A stretch of 41,826 nucleotides of DNA, from positions 1-41,826 of the IMG/VR virus record IMGVR_UViG_3300037460_000163; one strand, written 5' to 3'. Origin of the DNA: a virus. This document shows, piece by piece, positions 42 through 37,884 of this stretch. The first letter of the stretch is position 1, and every line of letters begins with the position of its first letter. Position numbers and translations under genes: made by a program. The notes beneath the pieces were generated by a model, which saw only the letters and a list, made by a program, of their open reading frames with translations, was not told where the DNA came from and did not search any database.

Positions 42-380
42 TTACGCATTCTCTACGATAGGGAAGGAGGTAGTCTTTGAGCGATCGGCAAAAGTTTTTC
101 TTTTAACTCCAACATAAATTCCTAAAACATTTAGTTTTAAGATCTCATGTATTGCTAGATTAATAGCGAGGGCTTCCTCAATTTCACTTAACTCACGAGA
201 ACTTAAAACGATTCTTGCTAAGTAAGCACAAGTGTTGTAACCTTGACGGACGTCAAAAGCAAACCATTGTTCCCATTGTATAAAAGGATTAAAAGGATTG
301 TCAAGAGTTGTTAACATTAATTCATCTTCAACAATCTCTTTAAGTTCCTTTGGTCTATTAGTATTGTCATTAGTATCCAT
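42..380 (-). CDS. Conserved phage protein of unknown function (112 aa)
   Basis: Last gene of the leftmost operon, 6 nt after the RNA-polymerase-like gene. The N-terminal third holds the segment DNPFNPFIQWEQWFAFD, followed by a Gly-Tyr-x-Thr-Cys-x-x-Leu-Ala-Arg run and a predicted helix (about residues 62-85). I recognise the DNPxNPFxQWxxW...YLARI pattern from small proteins of other Gram-positive-type siphoviruses but know no function for it. There is no signal peptide or membrane segment. Its tight linkage to the polymerase-like gene suggests a shared role or shared timing. The gene end is followed by a GC hairpin. Coding status is well supported by operon spacing and composition; function is unknown. 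Confidence 0.8.
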   Translation of the reverse strand: MDTNDNTNRPKELKEIVEDELMLTTLDNPFNPFIQWEQWFAFDVRQGYNTCAYLARIVLSSRELSEIEEALAINLAIHEILKLNVLGIYVGVKRKTFADRSKTTSFPIVENA

Positions 381-386
381 AACTTT

Positions 387-3068
387 TTATCCTTCACTTT
401 CAAGGGCACTGGTTATTGTACTGACAGCTACTCCTAGGGCATCAGCTATCTCTGATGGCGTATAGCCTGATGCTTTCATGGTGCGTGCTCTTGTCATCTT
501 GGTGGGGGTCATAACTGTTGCTGTGCGGGGCATTGCCCGGGTCTTAAGCTTAGTGGTATCCGTGTTGAGTAGTACCTGCCGTAGCTTAGAGGGGGAGATG
601 GCGCCGGCCTGAATTGCTAACCACTCCCGGTCTGTTATCGGAATGTCCTGCTTCTTGGCTCCGTATCTAGTACGGGCTTCTTCTATAGCTTGGGTCTTAA
701 CTTTTTTTAACTCCGCCTCCTCCATATGGGGGTTGTCTTTCTTCTTGGCGGTGATCCAATTGTTCGCCATAAGCTGAGCCTTTCTTTCCAAGGGTTTGTT
801 TCTAAAAGCTAGGGCTAACTTGTTCGTAAGACTATGATACTCTGGATCAAAGGTGTCTCTTGCTGATCGTGAATAGGGAATGTCTCCTGTTCTTTCTATA
901 GCACGTCTAGCCTTATTAGCCTGGGCCTTTAGTTTGTTTGCATGAGCTGCATAGAGAGCTTCCATAGGAGTACCTGAAGATAGCTCATAGGCATCATCGG
1001 TTACTTTCATGCGCTTCGTTTTGGTCTTAAGCTTAATCACCTTTCCCTTCTCAGTGACATACGTTGCGCCCGTTTCTCTATACAATTTCTCTCCTGTATC
1101 AGGATCAACATAGAAGCGTTTCTTTCTACCAGTCTTAGGGTCTACTCTGTAAACTCCTTGTTTTCTTTCATCTATCCGTGCTTCAGCACCGGCCCTAGAA
1201 ATTAGAGTAGCTGCGCCTGCTGTTGTCTTGCCTTGATACTTTTCTTTTAGCTTACCTATGCCGTTATCTATGGCCGATTGTTTGTAATTCAATCCTTTTT
1301 CTGCATCGATAACAACCATTGAGTGACGAACAGCACGGGCTATCTCAGTAGGAGAAGCCCCTTTAATCGTCATGTCAGTAATAAGATTTGATACTTTACC
1401 CATCTCCATTTGCTTTACTTTGGGGGTAATAGTTTTCATACCCTCATACCCTGGATAAGAAGATTCAGGATCAAAGTCTTTTAATCCAGCCAGAGGTTTA
1501 GAGGTTTTAATTACACGTTGTTTATTAGATATGACAATGACTGTATCTCCATCAAAGTCAGCACCTGACATTAGATTAGCTACTTTAGGATTAATCCCAA
1601 CAGCATCTTTAGCCACACCAATTAAACCCTTAGCTTCTGCATTTCGATTATTCACAATAAGCGTGGGGACCTCAAATGTACCCCCATGGGGGTGTCTAAT
1701 AAGAACTACTGGTTCTCCATTTCTAAAATTAGGAGCATAAACTTCTGTCTCTTTAATAGAATTAAATGGCAATAACACTTGAGATTCTTGTCTTGGTAAA
1801 GCAGCAGCTTTAAGATGCACAGAGGCAGCATCTGCTCCATCAGCATAAGCTTGCAATAAAGCTTTCTTTACAGTAGGGTTTGTTAGAGACATAATCTCAT
1901 TAAACTCTTCTTCACTGAGCTTTATTGCCATATTTAATTGCTGCTTGGCAAGCGCTGACGTTTGTTTCGATAAGATTTGAGAAGACAAAGTCTTAGTCCA
2001 CTTACTCCATGATCCTTCTTCACCAGCACCAGGTACAGAACCCACAATGTTTAATGCTGATAATTGTTTTTTACCATTAGCATCTATATAATGTTTCTGC
2101 CGTAACGTAGTGCCAAACGGATTATCTGGATCATCCTTCATAAGTTTATAAATTTCTGTAGTAGGTGTTCCTTTTGGTTTATTTGTGTTATAAACAACAT
2201 CATAACCAACAGGCATCTCTTTGGAATACATAGCCATGCCTTTCATGTAGTATTTACCATCAACACCAACACGAACTTGGGCATAACTTGCAGTTCCTAA
2301 ATCAAGCTCTTCAACACCTTGACGAAGCTGAAGTACACCATCTTTATTTGAGCCGCCTTCATCACCATAACGAATCATTATTCTATCGCCGCTTATACTG
2401 CGAACAGGCTCAAGGCCTAAGAAAGATCGGCCCAAATCTTCAGAATAATCATCAACCATAGAGATCTGATCTCGATTCTGTTTGACCTCTGCCCAAGTAG
2501 CTTCCGGATGGGCTAGCACTTTCAAAGTCGTATAGTTTCCGGTTGTAACTTGTTTTTCTTGTAACCCAAATAGTTTATAGCCCTTTTCTTTCAACATGGC
2601 TATTGCCGTTCTTAACTTTGTTGGTGCTATACCTAAATGCTGTTCTACACCAATTCCAACATCAATGTATTTTTTATTGTCAACGGCGTCTTTTAGTACT
2701 GCGGCTATGGTCGCTGCAGTTGCAGCCTTTTCTTTCAAAGCAGGGTCTAATAGAGAACGAATAGAAGACTCATTGCGCCCCATTCGTTCTCCAATAGCCA
2801 CATTAGAATAACCTTTCTCTTTAAGACGATAGGCCATAGCGTAATCTGCCGCCCGTTTTTCTGCCTTCGCAATGGAGCGCATATCACGTAGTTCTCTACT
2901 GTTTATTCCCATACCAACAGCAATTTCCATATCTGATAGGCCTTCAGTCTTTAAACTGGTATAATCACCTAGAAAATCGCCAGTTCTTTGATATGCATCT
3001 CCCCCAGAGCCCCAAGGATATCTTCCGGAGTGACGTTTCGTACCATAATGCCTGATTACTTTTGCCAT
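387..3068 (-). CDS. RNA-polymerase-like double-psi beta-barrel protein with HTH segments
   Basis: An 893-aa protein. Residues 502-508 read GADFDGD, the Mg-binding DxDxD signature of the large beta-prime-type barrel of cellular RNA polymerases and of single-chain phage enzymes such as SPbeta YonO. Upstream, the stretch with IRHPHGG (about 457-463) and AVGINPKVANLM (489-500) fits the run-up to that loop. Two helix-turn-helix-like segments lie near the N-terminus (about 42-66 and 84-107) and one at the C-terminus (about 862-888). The first 20 residues (HYGTKRHSGRYPWGSG) resemble the HYGxKGMKWGVR motif of two small head-region proteins at 37227-37884. It likely transcribes phage genes, or acts as a primase or RNA-templated enzyme of that fold; virion packaging is conceivable. 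It overlaps the upstream nuclease gene by 13 nt. The motif assignment is direct; the exact activity is inference. Confidence 0.72.
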   Translation of the reverse strand: MAKVIRHYGTKRHSGRYPWGSGGDAYQRTGDFLGDYTSLKTEGLSDMEIAVGMGINSRELRDMRSIAKAEKRAADYAMAYRLKEKGYSNVAIGERMGRNESSIRSLLDPALKEKAATAATIAAVLKDAVDNKKYIDVGIGVEQHLGIAPTKLRTAIAMLKEKGYKLFGLQEKQVTTGNYTTLKVLAHPEATWAEVKQNRDQISMVDDYSEDLGRSFLGLEPVRSISGDRIMIRYGDEGGSNKDGVLQLRQGVEELDLGTASYAQVRVGVDGKYYMKGMAMYSKEMPVGYDVVYNTNKPKGTPTTEIYKLMKDDPDNPFGTTLRQKHYIDANGKKQLSALNIVGSVPGAGEEGSWSKWTKTLSSQILSKQTSALAKQQLNMAIKLSEEEFNEIMSLTNPTVKKALLQAYADGADAASVHLKAAALPRQESQVLLPFNSIKETEVYAPNFRNGEPVVLIRHPHGGTFEVPTLIVNNRNAEAKGLIGVAKDAVGINPKVANLMSGADFDGDTVIVISNKQRVIKTSKPLAGLKDFDPESSYPGYEGMKTITPKVKQMEMGKVSNLITDMTIKGASPTEIARAVRHSMVVIDAEKGLNYKQSAIDNGIGKLKEKYQGKTTAGAATLISRAGAEARIDERKQGVYRVDPKTGRKKRFYVDPDTGEKLYRETGATYVTEKGKVIKLKTKTKRMKVTDDAYELSSGTPMEALYAAHANKLKAQANKARRAIERTGDIPYSRSARDTFDPEYHSLTNKLALAFRNKPLERKAQLMANNWITAKKKDNPHMEEAELKKVKTQAIEEARTRYGAKKQDIPITDREWLAIQAGAISPSKLRQVLLNTDTTKLKTRAMPRTATVMTPTKMTRARTMKASGYTPSEIADALGVAVSTITSALESEG

Positions 3069-3628
3069 GGATTATGCTCCTCCGATTTGAATTCCTCGAT
3101 CTTCTTGTCGAAGTATATGATTTTTTCCATAATGCGCCGAATGTCGACATGCGCCGGTTCGTGCAATATGATCTTAGTGGATTGATAGATTCGCAATTCA
3201 ATATCTATGTTCTTTGGTAATTGATCGTATTCTAAACAAAATAAGGCTGAGTAAACTTCGAGCTGTTCCATTGATACACGGGACAACCCTGTTTTTAAAT
3301 CATGAACTCTTAGCAAATTACTTCTAAAACTAATTGCATCACAAGTTCCGAACGCATTATATGAATAAAATAGTATTTGTTCTGGCGCCATTCGATAACC
3401 AATAGCATCATTAACAAACTGATTTACCGGACTTTTAGTTTTTGGAAGCTTGATTCCTAATAAAATTGCTTGACTAGCAAAATCATGAAGGGCTGTTCCA
3501 CGATATTGAGCTTGCGATTTCGCATAAGCGTCCCGAAGCTTTTCCTCATCATAGTTTAACCAATGATAGTTGGAGGCCGATAGAAACGCATGCCGATCAG
3601 TTAGCTCGTAATGCGGATTAAATTTCAT
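3056..3628 (-). CDS. PD-(D/E)XK nuclease, RecB/Cas4-like
   Basis: A 190-aa protein with the ordered motifs of the RecB/Cas4-like PD-(D/E)XK fold: a His in GTALHDF (H48), GTCDAI (D97), VHDLKTG (D110, K112), and QLEVYSALF (Q122, Y126). These supply the metal-binding acidic residues, the catalytic lysine and the QxxxY motif. No cysteine cluster is visible, so an iron-sulfur Cas4 form is unlikely. It probably degrades or processes DNA during replication or recombination. The gene overlaps the VRR-NUC gene upstream by 4 nt and the polymerase-like gene downstream by 13 nt, so all are likely translated from one transcript starting near 3975. Confidence 0.8.
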   Translation of the reverse strand: MKFNPHYELTDRHAFLSASNYHWLNYDEEKLRDAYAKSQAQYRGTALHDFASQAILLGIKLPKTKSPVNQFVNDAIGYRMAPEQILFYSYNAFGTCDAISFRSNLLRVHDLKTGLSRVSMEQLEVYSALFCLEYDQLPKNIDIELRIYQSTKIILHEPAHVDIRRIMEKIIYFDKKIEEFKSEEHNPWQK

Positions 3629-3933
3629 CTACGCACCGCACTCCGCCTTGCAGCAGCATCCAATTCATCAAGAATCCTGTCTGTATTTGACGGATATATA
3701 AACCTTGAAAAGGAAAGCTCATCCAGCGTATCAACCCAGAATTCTTGGTTCGGTCGATAAGCTGAAAATTGAGTCCGTTTAACTTCCAAAGCGGCCCAGA
3801 AATTATTTTGCAAAAATAATAAATCGGGAAAACCTTGAATGTATGACGAATCGGTCTTTAACACGACTGCTCCGGGAAACTGCTCTTCAAGTTCCCTAAT
3901 TATAGAAGCTTGTGTTGTGCTTTCTGAAGCCAT
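3625..3933 (-). CDS. VRR-NUC family nuclease
   Basis: A 102-aa protein with the compact VRR-NUC layout: an N-terminal helix with E/Q residues, then PGAVVLKTDSS, QGFPDLLF (D37) and ALEVKR (E50, K52), followed by RPNQ. D37, E50 and K52 match the D...ExK catalytic core. Stand-alone VRR-NUC proteins of phages are thought to act on branched DNA as resolvases or on replication intermediates. It is the first gene after the promoter-like element at 3984-4010 and leads the nuclease-polymerase operon. The ATG has AAGGAG 8 nt upstream. Confidence 0.82.
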   Translation of the reverse strand: MASESTTQASIIRELEEQFPGAVVLKTDSSYIQGFPDLLFLQNNFWAALEVKRTQFSAYRPNQEFWVDTLDELSFSRFIYPSNTDRILDELDAAARRSAVRR

Positions 3934-3950: not shown

Positions 3951-3983
3951 AAAAAAGAAGAGTACTTTTCTCACTCTCCTTCT
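3951..3983 (-). terminator. Intrinsic terminator or attenuator in leader of nuclease operon
   Basis: On the minus strand an 11-bp stem (two G-U pairs; arms 3973-3983 and 3953-3963) with a 9-nt loop is followed by a run of six T. It lies directly downstream of the promoter-like -10 at 3984-3989 and upstream of the VRR-NUC ribosome binding site. If that promoter is used, the hairpin would be the first thing transcribed and would act as an attenuator. Otherwise it terminates transcription from the 69-aa gene. Confidence 0.6.
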
Positions 3984-4010
3984 ATAATAGTCTTTGTTTT
4001 TAACGCGAGA
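3984..4010 (-). promoter_or_regulatory. Promoter-like element TCTCGC-N15-TATTAT
   Basis: Minus-strand TCTCGC (4005-4010) followed by exactly 15 nt and TATTAT (3984-3989). Three other sites (15156-15186, 17136-17166, 17498-17528) have the same spacing with TATAAT. This copy has a weaker -10 and lacks the TACA...TGTA dyad of the others. It would drive the VRR-NUC, RecB-like nuclease, RNA-polymerase-like and 112-aa genes. Confidence 0.5.
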
Positions 4011-4233: not shown

Positions 4234-4281
4234 TGTGTTCAATCCTTTCAAGATTTTAGTTTATTGGCTTCTCATAATAGG

Positions 4282-5490
4282 CTATGTAACTCTCGCGAAT
4301 TTCATGTCCGATTCGTTAAAATTTTTCTTGTGCATGATTGCTTTTCTTATTGCTTGATCTATCCATGACGGAGACGCAATTCTGTAGTAATACAGATTCG
4401 CAAAGGGCGTATTCATTCTATCTATACGACCCGCTGCTTGTGTCATTATTCTATATGAATAGTTTAGCGAATAGAAGACGATGACGTTTGTCTCAATGCA
4501 ATTCCAACCTTCACTTCCAGATAAGTATTGAACTAGGTAAGCCCAGTTCTCTCCTTCCGGTAAAGGCTCATGTTTGTGACCATTCCACTCTGCCACCTCT
4601 ACACCTGAAATTTCTTTAAGCGTACGCAAAATCTCTAACTCATAGTTAAAGTTATAAAAGATTATTATTTTTCTGTGTTTTTCTAATAACTCTTTTATAA
4701 TGTTAAGTCGTGTCGGATCACTGTTAACAACCTTGCGTACTGCAACGAATAACTCACTGATTTGTTTTATTGGTTTGTCTGTGAACGGGTTCCATCTTTT
4801 TTGTGTAACAAGTTTTAACTTGTCTTTATCATAGTTGGCCCATAAAGTTTTATAGATACTCTTTGTTTTTTTTTCATACTTCATCATCACGATAACTTCT
4901 TGCTTAAGTCTATTCAAACGACTCTCTTCAAGAAATCTCTCAACTTTAGGAAACCTAACAAACGAATTATATACAACATGACGTCGTATAAACTGAGTTC
5001 TGTTTTTATAAAAGTTATTAGCCACGAATACGGGAATATAATCCATCCACGTATCACCTGGCGTAGCACTCAACAAAATCCAATTGTTTTTCTTTGTAAC
5101 TTTGATAAACGATTTAACCCATGCTCCAGAACCTACAACTCGCTGCTCGTCAAATATAAAGAATGCGTTGTCAACATCGACATACTTCTTGATATTGTTC
5201 CAAGAGTCAACTTTGACCTGGACGCCATTTATACTTGAATCTCTATCGGTAGCTAATGCAAACTTAGCACACTCGCGTTCCCAGTCAAGAGTGTCTCGTT
5301 TTTTTGCAGTAGTGATGATATATAGATCTTTTAACGGATTACCATGGCACTCTACAACATAGTAATAGTATACCGAAGTGATAGACTTACCAGAACCGAC
5401 CCCACCACAAAGGATGGAGCCGGTTTTTAGCTGGTTTACAGCGTCAAGCTGATATGGGAATAGCTTACTCTTCCCAAGTGTCCGATTCAT
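4282..5490 (-). CDS. SF2 DNA helicase (Snf2/RecG-like phage helicase)
   Basis: A 402-aa protein with superfamily 2 motifs in order: YQLDAV (about 13-18), Walker A GGVGSGKS (29-36), a DExx-box variant FDEQR (113-117), SATPGDTW (141-148, motif III), and QAAGRIDRMNTP (motif VI, near 360). Motif V is probably within SEGWNC. It is likely a replication or repair translocase working with the SSB and polymerase encoded upstream. The start was placed at the ATG at 5490, which overlaps the SSB gene end by 26 nt and suggests translational coupling. The longer reading from 5550 would overlap SSB by 86 nt and is less likely. Middle residues 150-260 carry a basic helical insert. Confidence 0.82.
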   Translation of the reverse strand: MNRTLGKSKLFPYQLDAVNQLKTGSILCGGVGSGKSITSVYYYYVVECHGNPLKDLYIITTAKKRDTLDWERECAKFALATDRDSSINGVQVKVDSWNNIKKYVDVDNAFFIFDEQRVVGSGAWVKSFIKVTKKNNWILLSATPGDTWMDYIPVFVANNFYKNRTQFIRRHVVYNSFVRFPKVERFLEESRLNRLKQEVIVMMKYEKKTKSIYKTLWANYDKDKLKLVTQKRWNPFTDKPIKQISELFVAVRKVVNSDPTRLNIIKELLEKHRKIIIFYNFNYELEILRTLKEISGVEVAEWNGHKHEPLPEGENWAYLVQYLSGSEGWNCIETNVIVFYSLNYSYRIMTQAAGRIDRMNTPFANLYYYRIASPSWIDQAIRKAIMHKKNFNESDMKFARVT

Positions 5491-6001: not shown

Positions 6002-9000
6002 TCAATTGACTAACTCGTCGAATTCACAGAATTCGGATAAATGAGCGACCGCTTTATCAACTAGGTATCGGAAATAATCTAAATTGATATCATCTTCTTT
6101 ACCTGTTTCTTGAACGGCCTGTGCTTCCAACCAACGCCAACCTTTTGTTCCTGTGGCGGCATAGTACTTCCCTTCTTTTTCTCGCATAAGGGACCCGCCG
6201 CCAAAGCCTGGTTTGATCGGTACAAAGCTACCAGCTTTACCAACAAACTGATAGTTGTGTTCATCTTCTTCTAGTTCTTCGTTCATGTCTAAATATAAAG
6301 CTGTGGTGACTGCTTTTGCTTCACACATGTCCCAAAAGTCTATAGGTTCGTGACTGAACAAAGTTTTGAAAATATACGGATGCTGAAACTCTGCACCCGT
6401 AGCGGCCCAATGACCATCTTCAGCATCACGCGCAACATACACCGCGTCATTAACTAAGCAGAAAGTATCATACGTCGCCTCATGCTCAAACGTATAGCCG
6501 TATTCTTTACCAAAATTCTTAACGAAATTAATCGCTTTCTTTGTAGCTTTTGGCAGTTTTACGCTATCGGTTTTAATATGAGCGACCGTAATACCCTCTT
6601 CTTTTAGTGCATGCTTTAAATCTATCATAAAAAGACTACCTCGTTTCGCAACAATGTTATCTTTATTTCTCAAATCTTTGAACTTATTCGCAAACTTTGC
6701 CGAAGTTAATCCATAGACGATGTTGATAATGATCTTTAATGCATATGCCAAAGCGTCGGCATCATCTGTAGAACCAAGATGTTTATCAAGAGTACCGCCC
6801 AATAAGCCCCTAGCTTTCTTATAATCTTTGTGTTTGATTGCCAAACGCGCAGATATAATCTCGCTATAGTTCTTTGTATAAGGACCGAATAGGTCGAGAA
6901 GCTCGATACTAGTAGGATGCATGGACGCAATGTCCAATAACGCCACATCCCGATAGAATCCTGGTTCCGCATAAACATAGCCGCCTTCTTTCGGGTCTTC
7001 ATCTCGATATAAACTCTTTCCAGCATCAAATGTATACCCGGGAAACATTTCACTAAGGTCAGTATAAATGAAACTATTCTGTGGCCTTGGGTCGTTACCA
7101 AATATAATCTTTGATGTTTGCGACAACGTACTGTCATTAACAGATAAACCACTTAGATCTGCAAGGATTTGTCTAGCGACAAAGTCCTGTGCTCGAGAAT
7201 TAAACACTTTCTCTGTGGCTTTAACATCGTTATCACAATACTCAATCGCTTGGGGCCAATGCTCTTCTGCCAGCGGTTCATCCCACGGAAATGGGAGTTC
7301 TTGGTGATGGATTCCAAGTTCTATCTGAAACTTTTTTAAGCTTTGTTTCTTAGAACTGAAATCATACACGTCGGCATAAGAAATGTTATAAGCCTCACCA
7401 AACAAGTCTCGTCTTCCACCTCCGATTATTTTCTTGCTAAGTTCATAGATCTGCTGATTATCATACCCGATGTATCTTGCATACAGTATATGATTATCAT
7501 ACCGGCGATTATTAAACCCGACAAGCCTGAGCTTCATCAAGTCTTCAATTTCTTGACCGGTGGGATTAATCATGTGAATACATTCGTTTTCTTCACTCTC
7601 TGTATCTTGATACTTCCAGTTCACAAGAAAGAGGTTCGGATATACTTCAACATCGAAGAACGCTAACCGTTCATCTTCATAGGTTGTAACACTCGAGCTC
7701 GCCTCTTCCGAAGCAAACTGCATGGTACTAACCAATTTAACTGCATATTGGGATTGATTTGTACTGTTAACCGCAAAGGCAAGAATTGCAGGGCGCATAT
7801 CACGAACGTCGTACGGTGTGTCCGATTCGTATGCATCTTGAAGTATCTTATAGATGAAGTCGATGCTTGGCTTAGTGCCAGGATGAATCTCCTTCTTAAG
7901 ATTTCTTGTTATCAAATCACGAAGACCCTTCTCACTTTTAACTGTTTCAAAGTTTATCATTTTTTTCTTCTTTAGCGGTATACCAGTGGATATATGTGCA
8001 ACTGGATTGCTATTACATTTACTTACCTTTCGGCGTAAAGCCGAATCTCCGACAAATACTTTTACTTCTATCCCTTCGTCGTATACACGACTTAACCTGG
8101 CAGGATCTTCACCGGTGTAAATATAGTGGAGATGTATGCCTTGTTGGGACTTACTAAACTCTGCATAAGTCGGGGGCCATTTCGTCGCAGCTTCTAGATT
8201 TAATTCAGGCGACTTGTTTCCATCATCGTCACGAATATCAAAGTCTATTACTATATGATTCAGCGGAAGCTGAACATAATGTAACTTGTTTGTCTTTAGA
8301 CTTGATACTTTTGTTTTCACTTTATCCCACTTCTTCTGTGGGGTTTCATAAGTAGCAGATGCATATTGCGCTGGACAAGCAGCAATAACCTCGTCAAGCA
8401 AAGACGTAGTTTCTTCAAGAGCTAACCATCCCGGAGGAGGCGTTTTAAACTCTTGTCTTTTATCTTTAAACTTTCCCTGAATTAATTCAGAGTAATAGTT
8501 ACGACGCTGCTTACCATCTACCCACGCTCTATCTTCAAAGTTTTCAAAATAGTTTTTTAATTCGTCACGAAATTTGTACTTTGGTATTTTGTAATCAATT
8601 AAGGACTCTTCACAGAACTCTTTATACATTGTCCATGCTTGAGCTAGAGTTACTCCGCCTTCTTGGACAAAATCATAATAATGTGTTTCAACAAAGTTGA
8701 AAAAGACGTCCGTTTCAAATATCATTCCTAATGGACGATAGGTAGAATAGTAATTCTTTCCTAGTTTTCTGTACACATCTAAACACTGTTGCGCTATTGC
8801 GCCAAGTTCAAAGTCCATCCTTGATACTAAGCTGTAGTACTGATTAACAGGCACCGTATCGCCGCTCGGTTGTACATCAATCAATCTGCGAATGATGCCT
8901 GACTTTGCGTCGGTAATCTTGACGGGCTTGTTGGTGGCCATAAACAGAAAAGCATTTGCACGAGCCATATAGCTCGGTTTATACTTTTCGTTCATGGTCA

Positions 9001-9757
9001 TTTCATCGTGAGAAATAAGAGTGTTCAACTTCGTATTATCTTTGATGTTGGATAGATCACCATCATGCTGTAATGCTACTAATGGGTTATTTCGAAACAC
9101 TTCAGTGGAAAAGGCGTTCGACGTGGACACTAGGGCTTTCGCTTCGAATGTCGTATAATATCCAGGAAAGAGTTTTTGTACTAGATTTAAGAACGTAGAC
9201 TTACCCGTACCGCCCTCTCCATAAAGTACAATAAACTTCTGAATATCTTTTGCTTCACCCGCAACGATCGCGCCTAGTGCCCATTCCAACTTTTCCTGCT
9301 CGTCGGCATCAAACAACGTGTCCATCAACTTGGTGTAAGCGTCAGTCTTTCCTTTTTCCAGGGTATAGGGAAGTCGTCTACTGACATAGTCCCGTTTTTT
9401 AACTTTGGTGTTTTGGAAAGTTAGATGCTTGTCAAGTTGTTTTGCGTTGTCAGATATGTTATTCATGTATGTCCTAAAGTTCTTCCACGCATTTGTGGAG
9501 AAGTCGGACATAAACTTTACCCGTATTATTCGTTCACCTTTTCCTGCTAGTTTGTTTCTGTGTTCTAACAGATCATTATCGATAAGTCGTTGTACATCGT
9601 ATTCATCTGTAGACCACAAACCTTTCTCCGCATCCCATATGGAGTAGAAACCTTTTCCACGAACCATAAGGTCGTTGGATCTCATGACTTTAAAATCTGG
9701 AAATAATTCGATAACGCCATCTCTAGTAGTGCGCTCTTTTATTTGATAAAAATCCAT
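6002..9757 (-). CDS. SF3 helicase / prim-pol / family B DNA polymerase fusion
   Basis: A 1251-aa replication protein with three enzymatic regions in one chain. Residues about 120-430: D5/SF3-type helicase, with Walker A GEGGTGKST (180-188), LQHDGD (229-234), sensor ATNKPV (274-279) and arginines IIRRL (288-292). Residues about 440-600: prim-pol-like, with IDFDIRD (504-510) and GIHLHY (540-545). Residues about 695-1250: family B polymerase, with exonuclease motifs FDVE (701-704), GFNNRRYD (747-754) and YCDNDVKAT (840-848), motif A DIASMHPTS (942-950), motif B KIIINIVYG (1008-1016) and motif C KTDSV (1062-1066). Motif C has Lys where many family B enzymes have the first Asp of DTD, but the second Asp is kept. 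The start is ATG 9757, not the TTG at 9772. The open frame is uninterrupted, so the fusion is genuine as read. Confidence 0.88.
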   Translation of the reverse strand: MDFYQIKERTTRDGVIELFPDFKVMRSNDLMVRGKGFYSIWDAEKGLWSTDEYDVQRLIDNDLLEHRNKLAGKGERIIRVKFMSDFSTNAWKNFRTYMNNISDNAKQLDKHLTFQNTKVKKRDYVSRRLPYTLEKGKTDAYTKLMDTLFDADEQEKLEWALGAIVAGEAKDIQKFIVLYGEGGTGKSTFLNLVQKLFPGYYTTFEAKALVSTSNAFSTEVFRNNPLVALQHDGDLSNIKDNTKLNTLISHDEMTMNEKYKPSYMARANAFLFMATNKPVKITDAKSGIIRRLIDVQPSGDTVPVNQYYSLVSRMDFELGAIAQQCLDVYRKLGKNYYSTYRPLGMIFETDVFFNFVETHYYDFVQEGGVTLAQAWTMYKEFCEESLIDYKIPKYKFRDELKNYFENFEDRAWVDGKQRRNYYSELIQGKFKDKRQEFKTPPPGWLALEETTSLLDEVIAACPAQYASATYETPQKKWDKVKTKVSSLKTNKLHYVQLPLNHIVIDFDIRDDDGNKSPELNLEAATKWPPTYAEFSKSQQGIHLHYIYTGEDPARLSRVYDEGIEVKVFVGDSALRRKVSKCNSNPVAHISTGIPLKKKKMINFETVKSEKGLRDLITRNLKKEIHPGTKPSIDFIYKILQDAYESDTPYDVRDMRPAILAFAVNSTNQSQYAVKLVSTMQFASEEASSSVTTYEDERLAFFDVEVYPNLFLVNWKYQDTESEENECIHMINPTGQEIEDLMKLRLVGFNNRRYDNHILYARYIGYDNQQIYELSKKIIGGGRRDLFGEAYNISYADVYDFSSKKQSLKKFQIELGIHHQELPFPWDEPLAEEHWPQAIEYCDNDVKATEKVFNSRAQDFVARQILADLSGLSVNDSTLSQTSKIIFGNDPRPQNSFIYTDLSEMFPGYTFDAGKSLYRDEDPKEGGYVYAEPGFYRDVALLDIASMHPTSIELLDLFGPYTKNYSEIISARLAIKHKDYKKARGLLGGTLDKHLGSTDDADALAYALKIIINIVYGLTSAKFANKFKDLRNKDNIVAKRGSLFMIDLKHALKEEGITVAHIKTDSVKLPKATKKAINFVKNFGKEYGYTFEHEATYDTFCLVNDAVYVARDAEDGHWAATGAEFQHPYIFKTLFSHEPIDFWDMCEAKAVTTALYLDMNEELEEDEHNYQFVGKAGSFVPIKPGFGGGSLMREKEGKYYAATGTKGWRWLEAQAVQETGKEDDINLDYFRYLVDKAVAHLSEFCEFDELVN

Positions 9758-9827
9758 TAAAACTCCTTTCAAATCGCGATTCTTGCTAACAGACGTTTTG
9801 ACGGTCTTTCTTGCATTTTCCCAAACT

Positions 9828-9985
9828 CTCTATTATTTATACTTTTTTAAAAGTTTATAGGAAGAAATGTGTCACAACCGTCACAAAACACCCTTTAATC
9901 GCTCTAAGCGCCCTTCTCGTGCCAGCAAACCACAGACACCTTTTTGTCAAGAGTGACAAAATGTGACACTTTACTGACACAACGT
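9828..9985. other. Candidate replication origin: AT-rich stretch plus GTCACA repeats
   Basis: The 227-nt intergenic gap before the polymerase fusion holds an AT-rich tract (about 9829-9860, almost only A/T) next to repeated GTCACA/TGTGAC units: GTCACA at 9871-9876 and 9880-9885, a perfect TTGTCA-AGAG-TGACAA dyad at 9944-9959, TGTGAC at 9962-9967 and GACACA at 9976-9981. An unwinding element beside iterons upstream of the replisome gene fits an origin. It could also be an operator cluster controlling that gene. No strong sigma-70 promoter was recognised. Confidence 0.4.
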
Positions 9986-13052: not shown

Positions 13053-13305
13053 CTTTTAGATCTCCTTTCAGATCATACATTTCTGGCGTTCGTTCAAGTT
13101 CAGACGTGTCTGCTCCAGTTTTAAGAGCCTCTTCAAGCCATCTTGGACGCTCTGACAAAATATAGGGAGGTGGTTCATCAATCTCCGCTTCGCGGAGACC
13201 TTGCATTGCTTCTCGTAGGAGAGGTTCTTCGTCATCAATGTCCGTAATTTTCAGTCCCCACAACAAGAAGGTAACCCAAAGTTTTTTCAGTAGTCGTCTG
13301 ATCAT
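13045..13305 (-). CDS. Small N-terminally anchored protein (86 aa)
   Basis: Begins with a basic-hydrophobic segment (RRLLKKLWVTFLLWGLK) that could be a membrane anchor or amphipathic helix. The rest is acidic and Pro-containing (EPPPYILSERPRWLEEA). The 'PYIL' element also occurs in the 221-aa membrane protein. It overlaps the 310-aa paralog gene by 8 nt and has AGGAGG before its ATG. No known domain. Confidence 0.65.
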   Translation of the reverse strand: MIRRLLKKLWVTFLLWGLKITDIDDEEPLLREAMQGLREAEIDEPPPYILSERPRWLEEALKTGADTSELERTPEMYDLKGDLKDE

Positions 13306-13314
13306 TGTTTCCTC

Positions 13315-13950
13315 CTATTCAAGAGGTTCGGGTTTGGGTAGTACTAGGCCGTACCCCCATCGATCACGCTTCACATAAGCTGAGGAAAGGTTATACCATC
13401 CCCATTTATGATCTGTGAAATCGGTGGGTAGTCCCACTGCTTCATATAGATCAGCGACCGTACAAGAGTCGTACATCTCTACGGCTTCAACCAGAACGGT
13501 TAAAACTTCTTCAGCTTCTGGTTTAGATTCGATAATTATGTCATCGAACTGATGGCGTGACGGTCGTCCTCTTCCACCACGTGTTTCTTGTTGTCGTGAT
13601 TTTCGTGAAGGTCTATCGTACATGCTGTTATAGCCTACGTAAGTTCGATCACGGTCTCGTTTAAGTCGTCCTCTACGTTTCGAAGATGTTCCGGGTTCAC
13701 CATACATCAACATCTCAATACCGTTATTAATTATGTCGCTAACGGTACTTTTAGCGGCGGGAATTAGCACATCCCACAGAATATACGTTCCTACCTGCTG
13801 CATATGACCTCCAAACAGGCGGGCAAGCAGAGGTACATTCTTTTCTACAACAACTGCCTTTGTTACGGTCCTAATAGCCTCCTTTTCTTTTTTTTCTGTA
13901 GTTTTGCGGTTACTAGGAAATTCTTCTTTTTTTAATTCTTTCTCAGCCAT
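13315..13950 (-). CDS. Conserved phage protein of unknown function (211 aa)
   Basis: Has a charged N-terminus; a conserved block LLARLFGGHMQQVGTYILWDVLIPAAKSTVSDIINNGIEM (about 40-79) that could contact membrane; an Arg-rich linker (90-135); and a C-terminal block with TDHKWGWYNLSSAYVKR and GYGLVLPKP. I recognise this two-block arrangement from other siphovirus genomes, without a known function. It is preceded by GAGGAGG and lies in the membrane island between two small genes. Confidence 0.72.
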   Translation of the reverse strand: MAEKELKKEEFPSNRKTTEKKEKEAIRTVTKAVVVEKNVPLLARLFGGHMQQVGTYILWDVLIPAAKSTVSDIINNGIEMLMYGEPGTSSKRRGRLKRDRDRTYVGYNSMYDRPSRKSRQQETRGGRGRPSRHQFDDIIIESKPEAEEVLTVLVEAVEMYDSCTVADLYEAVGLPTDFTDHKWGWYNLSSAYVKRDRWGYGLVLPKPEPLE

Positions 13951-14843: not shown

Positions 14844-15128
14844 TTAAATTTCGGGGTTGGTCACCTCAATGTCATTCCAGATCACTTGTTCTGTGGCTGT
14901 CCTGGCTACGTTTGCGGCGGCTCCTGCTATCAGGGCAATTCCTACCGACACACCGATCAGTTTTGCGGCTTGAATAGCTTTCTCTTTACGAGTCCACTCT
15001 CCATTCCACAATCCTAAATCTGGGGCTACGGTCATAAGTGCCTTGTTTAGCACGGTTCCGACTGCAAAGACGGTTCCAAGCTCAACTGTGGTTAATACAA
15101 CTGGTCTAATGAAACTTTGGGGGTTCAT
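14844..15128 (-). CDS. Two-segment membrane protein (94 aa)
   Basis: Predicted membrane segments around residues 9-27 (PVVLTTVELGTVFAVGTVLN) and 58-76 (LIGVSVGIALIAGAAANVA), with a charged loop (NGEWTRKEKAIQAAK) between. Size and topology fit a small holin-like or unknown membrane protein. The start is ATG 15128, with GAAGGAG upstream. It is the first gene after the promoter-like element at 15156-15186, giving a leader of about 25 nt. Confidence 0.65.
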   Translation of the reverse strand: MNPQSFIRPVVLTTVELGTVFAVGTVLNKALMTVAPDLGLWNGEWTRKEKAIQAAKLIGVSVGIALIAGAAANVARTATEQVIWNDIEVTNPEI

Positions 15129-15155
15129 TTTATCTCCTTCAAGATTAAAGTTTGG

Positions 15156-15186
15156 TTTCATTATACACCGTGTATTTGTTGCGATT
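15156..15186 (-). promoter_or_regulatory. Conserved promoter/operator element, copy A
   Basis: Minus strand: AATCGC (15181-15186), 15 nt, TATAAT (15160-15165), then GAAA. The spacer ends in a near-perfect dyad ATACAC-G-GTGTAT overlapping the -10. It shares spacing and core with the elements at 17136-17166 and 17498-17528. The -10 overlaps the stop codon of the 53-aa gene, so it is embedded in coding sequence. It would drive the secreted, zinc-ribbon and downstream genes. Confidence 0.6.
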
Positions 15187-17030: not shown

Positions 17031-17052
17031 AAAGTCTCCTTTCAAGGATTGT

Positions 17053-17088: not shown

Positions 17089-17135
17089 CGAAAAAATAGA
17101 AAGGCTCGATTATTGATTAATCGACTTACATTACC

Positions 17136-17166
17136 TTTCATTATACAACGTGTAATTTTCGCGAGA
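17136..17166 (-). promoter_or_regulatory. Conserved promoter/operator element, copy B
   Basis: Minus strand: TCTCGC (17161-17166), 15 nt, TATAAT (17140-17145), then GAAAGG. The dyad TTACA-CGT-TGTAT lies across the spacer end and -10. It is located in a true intergenic gap and would give a leader of about 100 nt for the 50-aa membrane gene and those after it. Confidence 0.65.
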
Positions 17167-17486: not shown

Positions 17487-17497
17487 GGTAAGTCTCC

Positions 17498-17528
17498 TTT
17501 CATTATACAACATGTATATAATGCGAGA
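17498..17528 (-). promoter_or_regulatory. Conserved promoter/operator element, copy C
   Basis: Minus strand: TCTCGC (17523-17528), 15 nt, TATAAT (17502-17507), then GAAAGGAG. Dyad ATACA-TGT-TGTAT overlaps the -10. It fills the 21-nt gap between the holin gene and the 88-aa gene. The GAAAGGAG is also the Shine-Dalgarno, so initiation 6-8 nt downstream would cut into it; the site may instead be chiefly an operator. Confidence 0.58.
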
Positions 17529-28930: not shown

Positions 28931-30691
28931 TTAGGAGGTGAGTTGCTCAAGGATGCAAGCACTCTTCGGAACTGTTAAGCAACCGGAGATGCGAGTCTCG
29001 ATGAGATACTTCTGCTGGTTGTAGTCGATGTCGAAGTCGTCGAACATGTTGATTTCTCCGCCCTTGTCTGCACCAATGGTGTAGTCGGACAGGTTGACAA
29101 CGATCGCGCGCAACGCGTACTCGGTTGCGTCAGGAGTGTGGACTAAACCTTCCATTGCTGGAACTTCCACAATTGAAGAAACGCGCAACTCAGAGGCCAA
29201 TTCAGCTTCTGAACGGTACAAACGACGGCCATCAAGATCCCTTATCAGGAGCATGGCGGTCAGCAAGCTGGGTGCCATGAAGCAGGTGGGTGAACCAGAA
29301 CCACGATACTCAACGCGCATTTCAATCATGTCGTCGATCAGATCGGTGGTGCCATCAGCAAACGCTGCGACTTCCTGGTGGGTGTAGATAACCGTGTCTT
29401 CTGTCCAAATTGGACGAACGTTGGTTTCATTGATTTTGTCGTCGGAGGCGCCTGAGCGACCATCGCCAACAAGAACTGCACGAGCAATTTCCTCGTCCAG
29501 CATAACACGCATTTCGCGCTTCAGCCAAGCAACCACGTTGAAATCGGTAATGTCGATAATGTCATCACGATCCAACTTCTGTTTCTTGTAAATGGTCGTT
29601 GGGGTTGTGGTCCGGCGAAGAATCGGGAATACTTCCTCGATCTTCAAGTTACCGGTTGTATAGCCCAGGGCACGTGCTTCGTCTGCAGTAATATCAGCAT
29701 GCATTGATTTGATGCGGGAGAATGGTGAATGGCGAGTGCCCTTCAACACCGTTGTTACCCATCCCATCTGACGTGCGATCCAAGTGGGTTCTTTCGTCAC
29801 GTTGCGAGCATCGGGAAACAAATAATCGATATTGTCGATGCCGTAGGTCCCAGCATGCACCAGTTCCTGGACTTCTTCATCCAAAGTGGCGATATGGGCA
29901 TCAAAGCCTTCACGCAGGGAACCGAGACGTTGCCCTTCACTCAGAATCGCTTTGAAATCGGCGTGAGTCAGAACTGGAGCCTCACCACCTTCGTTGCGTC
30001 CATCAAACACGTTTTTTTTCATTAGGTTTTTTGAATCTCCTTCATTCGGATTGTTTTCTCCGGCGGTGTGTTCAATCTCGCCGCTTTCTAAAAGTTGGCC
30101 GATGATAGCATAGACAGCGTTCGTCTGTTTAGCATCGAGGGTTTTGAAGACGTCGCCGATTGTTTCTTCATCTTCATCAGCGTGTTCAAATTCTTCTTCG
30201 GCTGGTTCTTCTTCCAATGAACCGTGAATGAGCTCTAAACCTGTATAGATGATTGCCTCATCAAGAAGGTCTTCGAGATCCCCATCAGCATGCTGTATCG
30301 CTACAAAATCAATTTTTGCACCGGGGTTAGCGCCAGATAAAACTAGGCTAACTTCGCGGATTGTGCCATGAAGCACGTTCTTGGCCTTCTCGACTAATTG
30401 ATTTGCAAATATAGATAAGGACTTAATGTCCTTATGCATGATGAGTTCTTTGGCTTTTACTGCTTCTTCGGAATCATTCAAATATGCATAAACGTAAACG
30501 CCTTCTTCACGATTTTCCAGTTCGGTGTGACCGAGTACATTGGCGGGCTCGCTATGCAGATGCTGCCACACCAAAGGGACAGTCATACCGTCCTGATGTT
30601 TAAATGCATCGCGTTGGATTATACGTCCATCCGAGCATTTAAGATCGTTCTTAGTGGCCCAGCCACTAAAGTTGTAATTGGGACTTGGCAT
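28931..30691 (-). CDS. Fused prohead protease and HK97-type major capsid protein
   Basis: A 586-aa fusion. Residues 1-140 are an S78-type prohead protease: VPLVWQHLHSEPANVLGHTEL carries the catalytic His, and IKSLSIFANQ supplies the Ser. About 140-225 is an acidic helical region resembling a delta/scaffold domain. From about residue 225 the major capsid protein begins (MKKNVFDGR...), with TWIARQMGWVT, FSRIKSMHADITADEARALGY, DITDFNVVAWLKREMRVMLDEEIARAVLVGDGR and a C-terminal TRISGCLTVPKSACIL. Self-cleavage between parts during head maturation is expected. An in-frame ATG at 30022 with AAGGAG 14 nt upstream could also produce the capsid part alone. Confidence 0.9.
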   Translation of the reverse strand: MPSPNYNFSGWATKNDLKCSDGRIIQRDAFKHQDGMTVPLVWQHLHSEPANVLGHTELENREEGVYVYAYLNDSEEAVKAKELIMHKDIKSLSIFANQLVEKAKNVLHGTIREVSLVLSGANPGAKIDFVAIQHADGDLEDLLDEAIIYTGLELIHGSLEEEPAEEEFEHADEDEETIGDVFKTLDAKQTNAVYAIIGQLLESGEIEHTAGENNPNEGDSKNLMKKNVFDGRNEGGEAPVLTHADFKAILSEGQRLGSLREGFDAHIATLDEEVQELVHAGTYGIDNIDYLFPDARNVTKEPTWIARQMGWVTTVLKGTRHSPFSRIKSMHADITADEARALGYTTGNLKIEEVFPILRRTTTPTTIYKKQKLDRDDIIDITDFNVVAWLKREMRVMLDEEIARAVLVGDGRSGASDDKINETNVRPIWTEDTVIYTHQEVAAFADGTTDLIDDMIEMRVEYRGSGSPTCFMAPSLLTAMLLIRDLDGRRLYRSEAELASELRVSSIVEVPAMEGLVHTPDATEYALRAIVVNLSDYTIGADKGGEINMFDDFDIDYNQQKYLIETRISGCLTVPKSACILEQLTS

Positions 30692-31926
30692 TATTCAGTA
30701 CTCCCTTCGTCATTAGGTTTGGTTGTATCTTCCTCTTCTTCCGCTGCTACGTTCAAATTCTTATTCCGTAACTCGTCTGCCGCAGGATCTTCACTGGGCT
30801 TCATACCGAGTACAGCACGAAATTCATTACTGGAAACGATTTCATTTCTAGTAAACTTATCAGCCATCTCGGCTAATATAGAAGCGGGTACAAGTTTGAA
30901 CGGATCTCGAAGAGCCATGATTTTCTGCCCTTGAGTCCGCGCAGTTTTCGTAAGGAACACACGTGACATAGCATCAGTAATAGCTCCGAGAAACGGCTCG
31001 ATAGTCCTATTCCAATAGTTTATCATAGCTGCTTCATCCGCCGTACCATCGAAAATTTCCTTCGTCAACCCTAACTGGCTCCAAAGCATACTCGTTAGAT
31101 ATTCGATTTGGCTCATTAAATTATTCTCGGCAGGTCTGTTTAGTTGTGTAATCTTTTCAGTTGCATCAACATAACCAATACCATACTGAGAATCCTTTAA
31201 TTGCTCTTCGATCATTTGGCGGCGATTTTCGGCCTGCTGCATTCGTTTTTCTGTCTTGAGAACATAGGGCAACTGGATAAGTAAATCTAACTTACCAGAA
31301 CCACTTTGTTTATCAATAACGTCGATTAGATTAATCTTTTCAATTAAACGACGCAATGTCGAATTTGGTTCATTCATCACGGAATATAACGGATTCTCCA
31401 CAATAGCGACCATAGTTTTTGACAAAGTTAATTGCTCATATAACCCGGTTACTTGATTGTACAGATCTACCCGAATATGTTCCGGATACCATTGAAGAAT
31501 TCTCGCGGTTCTCATTGTAACTACATCATAAGAACTAGAGACGGCGGGGTCGACAGTAGTGTCGACAGGCACAATAGCTACCACTCCTTCATCACACATT
31601 GACATCACTACGTCTTGAATAAAAGCACGTCCGCTTTGATCTATGTTAGCTTCAACAGTTAAACACTCGTTTAAACTCGAGGATATAACGTCGAGGTATT
31701 TGCCATTCTCATCGGTTCGGACGTGCTGTAGACCGACTGCGGCCGTATCAATTCCAATTCTGTTATAAACCGATGCTATTGTTGAACGTTCCGTGTTAGA
31801 GAACATTGCTAGCCTATCAGGTCTATATCCAGAACCAGAACCGATATCGAAAGGATCATAGGGTTGATCCCCGAACCTGAAAATATTCCAGGCCCGTCTG
31901 ATTCTAGTAAGAATTGTGTCAGGCAC
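30691..31926 (-). CDS. Portal protein
   Basis: A 411-aa protein with N-terminal FRFGDQPYDPFDIGSGSGYRPDRLAMFSNTERSTIASVYNRIGIDTA, EVVxVP-type strands (VVAIVPVDTT), ENPLYSVMNEPNSTLRRL in the clip/stem area and SQIEYLTSMLWSQLGLTKEIFDGTADEAAMINYWNRTI near 270-310. This is the siphovirus portal family. It forms the dodecameric entry ring. The start is GTG at 31926, following AAGGAGG. The C-terminus is acidic. Directly precedes the protease-capsid fusion. Confidence 0.88.
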   Translation of the reverse strand: MPDTILTRIRRAWNIFRFGDQPYDPFDIGSGSGYRPDRLAMFSNTERSTIASVYNRIGIDTAAVGLQHVRTDENGKYLDVISSSLNECLTVEANIDQSGRAFIQDVVMSMCDEGVVAIVPVDTTVDPAVSSSYDVVTMRTARILQWYPEHIRVDLYNQVTGLYEQLTLSKTMVAIVENPLYSVMNEPNSTLRRLIEKINLIDVIDKQSGSGKLDLLIQLPYVLKTEKRMQQAENRRQMIEEQLKDSQYGIGYVDATEKITQLNRPAENNLMSQIEYLTSMLWSQLGLTKEIFDGTADEAAMINYWNRTIEPFLGAITDAMSRVFLTKTARTQGQKIMALRDPFKLVPASILAEMADKFTRNEIVSSNEFRAVLGMKPSEDPAADELRNKNLNVAAEEEEDTTKPNDEGSTE

Positions 31927-35478: not shown

Positions 35479-37224
35479 CTATTCGAAAGAATCCTTGTTT
35501 GCTTTGTATGCCACATAAGCATCCATCATAGCAGCAACTGGGTCGATCTTTTGCTCATAACGCTTCTTTAACAGCTTTCGATTACCGTTAGTGTCTTCGA
35601 GCGTGATCGCATTACCCATAGCGAACGTCATTAACTCTTGATCAAATAATAACATGCGCTCCTCGGCTAGTGTTTTCAACTCTCCGAGTGGAACACTTTC
35701 GGTCTTAGCTCCCTGTATTACTTTTTCTATACCGAAAGGCCCATTCTCCGTTTCCCAACGCGCAACAAACTCTTTAGCGTTGTACGGATCGAACCCCAAA
35801 CAATTTACATCATAACCTAAATCTAAAATAAAGGCATCTAGATCATCATAGACCTCCATCATGTCGATGACAGTCCCTTCTAGAACTTGGAGACTGGTCT
35901 CTTCTAAGAATTGATCGTATTTAGCACGCATTGCGAGTGGTAGTTTCTTTAGTGTTAACGATGAAATATAACATCTAGTCTTGACACCGAAATTACCATT
36001 AGACAACGGAAACAAGAATGTAAACGCACAGAAGTCGTCTCCCTGTGAAAGATCTGCACCGAGCGCGCATGGAAGCTCCCAAAAATCGCGTTTACGATGA
36101 GGAAGAGTTTCTTCATAAGTGAAGAAATATGTATAGCCTTCCATAGGAATTCCAAACCTTTTAGCAAGAATATCATTCCTTGCCGCTGGTACTTTCTCGG
36201 CTCTTTCTACGTCACGTTGATACGTTTCATAGGTAACAGTCTTTCCTAAATTTGGATTAGCTTTCGGCCACATTGTAGGATCGCCGACTTCTTCTATTTC
36301 ATCAAGACGGTAATAGAAAATGGATACATGCGGGTTTATGTACTCACCCTTGAGAATATCCAGTAATTCCATCTTAATAGTATCACCACTGCTATTACGT
36401 ATTGTTCCTTCAGAGCTCATCGCAACTATTAGATAGTCGTCTAATTTAGAAGCTCCTTGTTCGATTGCTCCGACTACATCTTCCCGAATATCACCGGAAA
36501 GCCATTCATCAATTGTAGAAACAAATGGACGCAATCCTTGGAGTTTATCGATAGACATTGGGCGTATTTCAACTATTGAACCAGTAAGAAAGTTCTCAAT
36601 TCCTTTCTTGGTAGATGCAAGTTTCTGTCGCAACGCTCTGGGACCAGTAGTGTTTTGGATAGAACCTTCTGTTAGAAACTTAAACAACGGACCTCTAGCT
36701 CGCACAATTGAAGTGCGCATTGGAGACATTACTTCTTCGGCCTGCTTCATTGTCGGAGCAGTCGTTACTTGGTGTGTTGTAGTGGTATTAACGTTTAGAA
36801 AATAGTTTTGTATTAATGAGCCGTACATTGATTTGGCTGCACCTCGTGCAACTATCAAATACTGCTTATTGATCAATCTTTTCTTTAATCTTTTTCTAAC
36901 GTATTTACCTCCTCGATTGTTAGCCGTAGGAACAAACACTGATCTTTCTACAAAGTAGTACCAACCGAAGATTTGTTCCGCCCATAGCTTAAAGCTTGGC
37001 AACAATGATAAATCACTGCCATCGGTTAATGTCAATTCTGCTTCGCAAAATTTAATAAAACCGTATATAGCTTCGCTATCGTAATAGATACCCGGATTGT
37101 CAATCAGTTTGTCTATTCGATTCATCTCTAATGAGATTTGTTTACAAACTGGTATGTTACCATCAAGTACCTGATCGCGAAATTCTCCATAATACTTTGG
37201 AACTGCTTTGTTGGAAAAGACCAT
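35479..37224 (-). CDS. terL: Terminase large subunit
   Basis: A 581-aa packaging ATPase-nuclease. Walker A variant ARGAAKS (126-132), coupling block TTAPTMKQAEEV (154-165), Walker B STIDEW (236-241) and a nuclease Asp in LGADLSQGDD (391) followed by further acidic sites (DPVAAMMDAY near the end). This fits HK97/lambdoid-type siphovirus TerL. It cuts and translocates DNA into the prohead with the small subunit encoded upstream. The HNH gene next to it suggests cos-type cutting. Confidence 0.92.
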   Translation of the reverse strand: MVFSNKAVPKYYGEFRDQVLDGNIPVCKQISLEMNRIDKLIDNPGIYYDSEAIYGFIKFCEAELTLTDGSDLSLLPSFKLWAEQIFGWYYFVERSVFVPTANNRGGKYVRKRLKKRLINKQYLIVARGAAKSMYGSLIQNYFLNVNTTTTHQVTTAPTMKQAEEVMSPMRTSIVRARGPLFKFLTEGSIQNTTGPRALRQKLASTKKGIENFLTGSIVEIRPMSIDKLQGLRPFVSTIDEWLSGDIREDVVGAIEQGASKLDDYLIVAMSSEGTIRNSSGDTIKMELLDILKGEYINPHVSIFYYRLDEIEEVGDPTMWPKANPNLGKTVTYETYQRDVERAEKVPAARNDILAKRFGIPMEGYTYFFTYEETLPHRKRDFWELPCALGADLSQGDDFCAFTFLFPLSNGNFGVKTRCYISSLTLKKLPLAMRAKYDQFLEETSLQVLEGTVIDMMEVYDDLDAFILDLGYDVNCLGFDPYNAKEFVARWETENGPFGIEKVIQGAKTESVPLGELKTLAEERMLLFDQELMTFAMGNAITLEDTNGNRKLLKKRYEQKIDPVAAMMDAYVAYKANKDSFE

Positions 37225-37226: not shown

Positions 37227-37538
37227 TTAGTTGTCCTTGCTTAATTTCTGTTTGCCCGCTGACACTAGTTTCTTCGCATTTTGGTGATTATAGATCGTCG
37301 CCTTAAATACCTTGTTCTTTAAAAGCTTAGAAACAGCCTTTTTACCTGAAGCAATATCCGCGGCTACGTTTTTCTTAAAGCCTTTTCTACCTCGTGCAGT
37401 TGACAAACTATGACTTTCACTACCAACCATACCTTTTCTAACAATCGCGCCCGCCTTGCTGGCTTTGGATCCATACTTTCGCACACCCCATTTCATGCCT
37501 TTAACGCCATAATGAGTAATTACTCTATTACCAGTCAT
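37227..37538 (-). CDS. Small basic protein with HYGVKGMKWGVR motif (103 aa)
   Basis: The N-terminus MTGNRVITHYGVKGMKWGVRK carries the phage motif HxGxKGMKWGxR. The rest is Lys-rich and helical. The neighbouring gene at 37540-37884 and the RNA-polymerase-like protein (HYGTKRHSGRYPWGSG) carry related starts. Its basic nature and position between adaptor and terminase genes suggest a virion-associated DNA-binding or targeting role. The function of the motif is, to my knowledge, not established. Confidence 0.72.
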   Translation of the reverse strand: MTGNRVITHYGVKGMKWGVRKYGSKASKAGAIVRKGMVGSESHSLSTARGRKGFKKNVAADIASGKKAVSKLLKNKVFKATIYNHQNAKKLVSAGKQKLSKDN

Positions 37539-37539: not shown

Positions 37540-37884
37540 TTATGCGCCTCCTTCTATTATTTTTTTAGCATACGTTGTAGCTCGTGTTGCAACAGCAGCT
37601 ACAGCAGTTACTGCGGCCAAAGTTCCGGCCAAAGCAACAACTGCCTTTTGAGCTTTTTTCGTGGATGACGGATTAAGGTCGGAATATGATTTCTCCAGAC
37701 TCAGTCTCGCATTGACTGTCTTTAACTCGTCATTCGTTAGTTGAAATCCTTTCTTTTTACGTAAAGTCGAAGCTTCTGACGATTCAGAACTGCGAGAACG
37801 CTTCTTTCGCACACCCCATTTCATACCTTTAGTGCCGTAATGCACTACGGCACCTCCAGCTATGTCGAAAATATCATTTGTCAT
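37540..37884 (-). CDS. Small protein with HYGTKGMKWGVR motif and membrane segment (114 aa)
   Basis: Residues 14-26 (VHYGTKGMKWGVR) match the motif of the neighbouring gene; a basic, Ser-rich stretch follows (KKRSRSSESS). Then come a helical part and a C-terminal hydrophobic segment (AVVALAGTLAAVTAVAAVATR, about 85-105) that could insert in a membrane. Tandem placement with the 103-aa gene suggests duplication and divergence. If packaged, the hydrophobic end might help entry; that is inference only. Confidence 0.72.
   Translation of the reverse strand: MTNDIFDIAGGAVVHYGTKGMKWGVRKKRSRSSESSEASTLRKKKGFQLTNDELKTVNARLSLEKSYSDLNPSSTKKAQKAVVALAGTLAAVTAVAAVATRATTYAKKIIEGGA

Follow-up and report, generated by a model that had tools for sequence, protein, structure and literature searches.

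A protein encoded in a viral sequence of 41,826 nucleotides (IMG/VR record IMGVR_UViG_3300037460_000163, positions 1 to 41,826; this whole stretch is referred to as the window) was, by its predicted fold, a double-psi-barrel (DPBB) RNA polymerase (RNAP), RNA synthesis itself being predicted, and its N-terminus appeared to be a variant of the DUF7211 tag. Since this tag was common to the RNAP and to many unrelated proteins encoded among head genes, packing of the RNAP into the particle is suggested. We consider it probable that the enzyme is a virion-packaged RNAP that a modular cargo tag directs to the head and that reads phage-specific early promoters. The features concerned are listed in Table 1.

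Table 1. Positions of the features in the window, with the evidence for each
Feature	Position	Strand	Evidence or remark
p112, 112-aa protein (phrog_4303)	42..380	-	Downstream of RNAP gene
Single-chain two-barrel RNA polymerase (predicted), 893 aa, ATG start	387..3068	-	phrog_4291, AF2 model, Foldseek
C-terminal HTH, about aa 855-890	399..506	-	Pfam HTH_23, model helices
Catalytic loop GADFDGD, aa 502-508	1545..1565	-	Invariant, 32 sequences
HTH segment 2, aa 75-108, sigma-70 region-4-like	2745..2846	-	Pfam HTH_38, Sigma70_r4_2
HTH-like segment 1, about aa 32-70	2859..2975	-	Model helices 32-41, 46-52, 57-84
N-terminal tag AKVIRHYGTKRHSGRYPWGSG, aa 2-22, putative DUF7211 variant	3003..3065	-	Reciprocal HMM searches, DUF7211 matches in relatives
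Exonuclease (phrog_3953), same operon	3056..3628	-	Overlaps RNAP start
Nuclease (phrog_93), first gene of RNAP operon	3625..3933	-	Same order in Hungatella prophage
Promoter-like element before RNAP operon, CTCGCGTTAAAAACAAAGACTATTATAGAAGGAG	3976..4009	-	Comparative search; one of five sites in the window
Early-type promoter-like element	4266..4299	-	
Early-type promoter-like element	15152..15185	-	
Early-type promoter-like element	17132..17165	-	
Early-type promoter-like element	17494..17527	-	
Prohead protease-major capsid fusion (phrog_3270)	28931..30691	-	Peptidase_S78 + Phage_capsid; phrog_3270, 703 bits
Portal protein	30691..31926	-	
Terminase large subunit (terL)	35479..37224	-	Adjoins tagged genes
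DUF7211-tagged small protein THYGVKGMKWGVRK, reads VITHYGVKGMKWGVRK	37227..37538	-	PF23847, 39 bits (cut-off 27)
DUF7211-tagged small protein VHYGTKGMKWGVRK, reads AVVHYGTKGMKWGVRK	37540..37884	-	PF23847, 30 bits (cut-off 27)

The PHROG family phrog_4291 ("RNA-dependent RNA polymerase") matched the protein over its full length (1164 bits). Phage proteins of this family, annotated as RdRP or HTH protein (1706 gp75, Mudcat gp94, Scap1, and others), are of the same family as the window RNAP over its full length, and the literature searched yielded no virion role, tag, or promoter for them. In a Foldseek search with the AlphaFold2 model (pLDDT 79.9, pTM 0.64), the matches included QDE-1 (E 1.6e-8), the Thermus phage RNAPs P74-26 gp62 (4e-6) and P23-45 gp64 (5e-6), and Arabidopsis RDR2, all at E≤1.1e-4, and every one of the 12 PDB matches at E≤0.001 was a double-psi-barrel polymerase. 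Structure prediction thus bore out the double-psi barrels foreseen in the initial annotation; TM-scores against the PDB matches were low (~0.3), so that the global domain arrangement of the model is tentative. The loop previously read as the signature of beta-prime-type barrels, GADFDGD, contains the DxDGD motif of two-barrel RNAPs and was unchanged in 32 relatives. Among the three HTH segments that had been proposed, the second and the C-terminal one were backed by Pfam/PHROG family matches over residues 75-108 and 857-888, respectively: HTH_38 (8.8e-6) and Sigma70_r4_2 (5.8e-5) for the former, both slightly below the curated Pfam cut-off, and HTH_23 (2.9e-6, over the cut-off; model helices 855-866, 871-878, and 882-890) for the latter. 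Only predicted helices marked the first, for which no Pfam match of its own was identified. Separately, small proteins (G016:C1:50484-50846, G053:C1:296152-296436, and Psst2 13305-13631, the last annotated as "RdRP") resembled the segment of approximately residues 520-630 alone.

Two groups of known phage RNAPs are comparable. YonO from SPbeta (phrog_8308) is likewise a single-chain two-barrel RNAP, and a weak profile match was found over the catalytic barrel (E 9e-5). We rejected YonO as a direct homologue, as hhalign found no similarity and the phrog_8308 match was at the level of the barrel, not of the full length. YonO differed further in having no HYG tag and, as previously claimed for its HTH content, no HTH detectable by Pfam. 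P23-45 gp96 (virion) and gp64 (non-virion) are two-barrel phage RNAPs like that of the window, gp64 being among the top structural matches, and lineage-specific early promoter motifs, promoter-like elements in the case of the window, would be a further likeness. In P23-45, a two-barrel virion RNAP is fused to the tape measure protein and has its own motif (PMC10770324); delivery is by this fusion, whereas that of the window RNAP, as proposed, would depend on a short tag common to other cargo.

The RNAP gene lies in an operon with a nuclease and an exonuclease. A p112 homologue was present at 105 of 112 RNAP loci; p112 (phrog_4303) gave no Pfam match and could be a partner of the RNAP. In a Hungatella prophage, the order was nuclease-exonuclease-RNAP-p112, HNH, connector, tagged gene, terminase, tagged gene, portal, and capsid fusion. 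Elsewhere in the window, a large primase-polymerase with a DUF5906 domain (6002-9772, minus strand) is probably a relative of 1706 GP55, a "four-in-one" replicase (PMC12205980). The intergenic stretch 5' of it (9773-9984) contained repeated GTGTCA/TGACAC words and is possibly an origin or operator, and another, between tail genes (27501-27634), contained repeated GGGCAAGCAATCC words.

The RNAP N-terminus reads MAKVIRHYGTKRHSGRYPWGSG. The consensus of RNAP N-termini was [DE]x[YFL]LxHYGxxRxSGRYPWGSG, and that of cargo tags [DE]xFLxHYGVKGMKWGVR. When an HMM of RNAP N-termini was run against ~12,500 other ORFs, five missed RNAPs and then exclusively tagged ORFs (E 5e-4 upward) were found among the best 25 rows; the reverse HMM, built from 15 tag residues without GMKWG, matched RNAPs and degenerate tags. 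As background, [LI]xH[YF]G occurred within the first 60 residues 12 times among 1,730 untagged ORFs, and 11 of the 12 were visibly degenerate tags. The HYG start, noted earlier as shared by the polymerase and head-region proteins, is therefore beyond chance according to the reciprocal searches and this count. The strict motif was present in 108 of the 116 RNAPs whose N-terminal region lay inside the ORF; the other eight were HxG or insertion variants, were cut by the contig end, or had an intact tag outside the stretch searched. The Pfam model of DUF7211 matched the RNAP N-terminus in 5 of 36 RNAP records (E 1.7e-4 to 0.007), under its cut-off. Since only the HYG half is shared and these relatives scored under the cut-off, we file the RNAP N-terminus, as judged from its residues, as a variant of DUF7211 and not as a member. 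The RNAP form (R.SGRYPWGSG replacing GMKWG) was found on RNAPs only, which, together with its score, means that the RNAP tag may have another role. Residues 7-22 ranked 15th in conservation among 878 windows along the protein, and residues 1-29 were predicted to be disordered (pLDDT below 50 in the AF2 model); a tag that is conserved yet disordered fits the expectation for a linear motif.

DUF7211 (PF23847) is a Pfam family of 25 positions without an assigned function. The two small head-region proteins highlighted in the initial annotation were members, their HYGxKGMKWG core scoring above the Pfam cut-off. The shared tag and the adjoining terL gene were confirmed, but the two proteins are no special pair, belonging to a large family. 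In relatives, as many as nine ORFs of a genome bore the tag, most of them close to the terminase and portal genes; Arthrobacter phage Qui had nine such ORFs, and Rhodococcus phage ReqiPepy6 gave nine DUF7211 matches. Clustering of 294 tagged ORFs after masking of the tag gave 109 clusters, including a large one of 140 members. The T4 capsid targeting sequence is a short N-terminal tag common to several internal cargo proteins. DUF7211 would resemble it if the unrelated proteins that share this short tag (the 109 clusters) are internal head proteins; no sequence relation is claimed, and T4 cargo is not known to include a polymerase. Domains recognized in DUF7211 cargo were 2'-5' RNA ligase/LigT-type 2H phosphoesterase, papain-fold glutamine deamidase, GNAT acetyltransferase, and ADP-ribosyltransferase (ART). 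ART and GNAT domains have been reported in phage-injected proteins (PMC7824862), and the enzyme types of the tagged cargo would fit injected effectors. The "structural protein" labels on the DUF7211 proteins 1706 gp07 and ReqiPepy6 gp19 are annotation, and it is on annotation that a virion location of DUF7211 proteins rests. Some ORFs (L060:1606-4755, L032:9066-10100, L024:11621-13210, and others) resembled tagged polyproteins in that their domains were separated by two or three DUF7211 tags. A literature search on the motif returned one unrelated paper, and one on DUF7211 returned genome announcements, reached through capsid-fusion terms, and no other account.

In one locus (L211), the RNAP ORF (1043 aa) consisted of a 2H phosphoesterase domain, confirmed by Pfam, then the tag, and then the polymerase. 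The closest relatives of this phosphoesterase domain were mostly the same domain in tagged cargo. The fusion gene, known from one contig, occupied the usual site, with the exonuclease on one side and p112 on the other; because the operon overlaps were normal, an assembly error is unlikely. Such a domain swap, together with the reciprocal HMM searches, the DUF7211 matches on RNAPs, and the conservation of the segment, speaks against the N-terminal similarity being a coincidence or functionless phylogenetic baggage. That reading, to which joint inheritance of the RNAP, tag, and capsid fusion would lend some weight, is already disfavoured and in our judgment barely credible.

The polymerase and the tag were found together across phages, as the initial annotation had anticipated. 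Among 50,697 phage records, the RNAP was counted in 250, the tag peptide in 243, and the protease-capsid fusion in 245, these figures being tallies per feature and not record-by-record overlap; the three counts were identical for Arthrobacter (95), Gordonia (55), Streptomyces (54), Curtobacterium (7), and Microbacterium (4), as well as for the main hosts. Among the matches listed, IMG/VR records retrieved by the tag contained the capsid fusion in 30 of 30 cases and, when at least 40 kb long, the RNAP in 13 of 16. Conversely, 33 of 36 records retrieved by the RNAP carried the tag on another protein, and the remaining three were fragments, or contigs ending inside the head module or without structural genes. 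Fifteen bacterial genomes fetched by the tag gave RNAP profile matches in 13 (one weakly) and the capsid fusion in 14. The tag is tied more tightly to the head module than to the RNAP, and the protease-capsid fusion is a candidate for its partner or receptor. In one tag-bearing contig of 57 kb (G021), the replicase was present and the RNAP was not detectable. Several other apparent exceptions were set aside: G013 and G016 (tag, no RNAP) also lacked the replicase, helicase, and exonuclease and so look like fragments, G033 (RNAP, no tag) was a fragment with no structural genes recognized, and a match in a Streptococcus MAG (G057) was a spurious frame of 22 aa. Co-occurrence largely reflects vertical inheritance in one lineage, which leaves the same tag on unrelated proteins unexplained. 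The strict linkage of the tag to the protease-capsid fusion and its basic core (KGMKWGVRK) would also agree with a prohead-protease cleavage or assembly site or a DNA-binding element, the RNAP copy being a vestige of an ancestral head-cargo fusion; however, the RNAP copy is one of the best-conserved stretches of its protein, and this speaks against a vestige; we regard this explanation as quite improbable.

Of 102 loci, 86 shared the element CTCGC[AG]..AAAAACAtggg.TATAATAGAAGG upstream of the operon of nuclease, exonuclease, and RNAP; position -17 was G in 84 of the 86, and position -7 was C in every one. An iterated matrix recovered a sister form,.TCGCA.aAattACA.g.c.TATAATGAgA (TATAATGA sites), in many copies per genome. 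Using a leave-one-genome-out model with the best of 20 shuffles as the threshold, 201 sites were found in 17 genomes or contigs, all 201 on the coding strand; every genome of the lineage that was scanned had some, and the same scan gave no site in the control phages phiC31 and SPbeta (50 kb), the latter differing from the lineage in this respect. In the reference genomes, sites started beyond the tail genes, in the early region (CricKo: first site at 24,939, end of tape measure at 20,549; 1706: first site at 24,025, end of tail gene at 20,459), and none was seen in the late region of those checked. The last site preceded the RNAP operon; its recovery is by design, that position having supplied the seed of the matrix. 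Sites were also present in tag-bearing contigs in which no RNAP was detected (G021, 11; G016, 8; G013, 2), and the element therefore marks the lineage. In the Lactococcus phages P078 and 1706, ACA..TATA.T was kept and TCGC mostly lost. The element TCGC..ACA..TATAAT is not known to have been described before. Within the window, TTTTCTCGCG taken by itself as a simple repeat did not exceed chance and was rejected; the element emerged solely when upstream regions of the operon were compared. In three ORFs of the window (17220-17513, 16878-17141, and 14844-15161, minus strand), the first ATG overlapped or abutted a promoter-like element, and the actual start codons probably lie further downstream.

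We infer that the element is read by the tagged RNAP. The main rival is a YonO-like, non-virion enzyme: the early TATAAT promoters would be read by the host RNAP and later genes by the phage RNAP, made in the cell after infection, and the tag would recruit the latter to a phage or host factor instead of the capsid. YonO transcribes the late genes of SPbeta (PMC5467207), the elements include a consensus -10 (TATAAT, also the sequence read by the host RNAP), and the RNAP gene is grouped with nuclease genes on the early/replication side. However, the elements had no match to a -35 box and shared TCGC and ACA boxes across phages of Actinobacteria and Firmicutes, and the late regions of the reference genomes showed none of them. 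Moreover, the tag is common to head-module cargo, and one RNAP bears a phosphoesterase domain of such cargo. We therefore judge the YonO-like alternative unlikely.

The claim of the initial annotation that the tag is a packaging or capsid-targeting signal is partly supported, by the barrel fold, the co-occurrence, the tag on unrelated head-region cargo, the L211 fusion, and the phage-specific early promoter-like elements. In the proposed mechanism, the 893-residue protein would serve as the virion RNAP in a siphovirus-like phage lineage that has a protease-capsid fusion. Its disordered N-terminal tag (the DUF7211 variant) would recruit it into the procapsid beside other, DUF7211-tagged enzymes of effector type, the head, perhaps the protease-capsid fusion, acting as the receptor, and the RNAP would be ejected with the DNA into the bacterium. 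There it would initiate at the lineage-specific early promoters, its own HTH segments probably standing in for the host sigma factor, and the nuclease-exonuclease-polymerase-p112 operon would use the variant promoter-like element (TATAATAGAAGG). In the circularized genome, the RNAP operon would lead into the head genes, so that new RNAP would be made late, as we infer, and repackaged.

In a broader form, to which we incline by a small margin, DUF7211 may be a general address for head cargo, loading a private RNAP and a changing set of effectors, with the RNAP running an early programme independent of sigma, from promoters of its own. This would apply to a phage lineage of more than 240 sequenced isolates plus prophages. 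The cargo enzymes (phosphoesterases, deamidases, and ADP-ribosyl- and acetyltransferases) are possible counter-defence effectors. If true, a family in approximately 250 sequenced phages, now labelled "HTH protein" or "RdRP", would turn into a virion RNA polymerase class whose hosts are easy to grow, and a Pfam family without function would become a cargo address, the tag predicting injected phage proteins from sequence alone. With the promoter-like element, early transcription can be put to the test in phages of this lineage.
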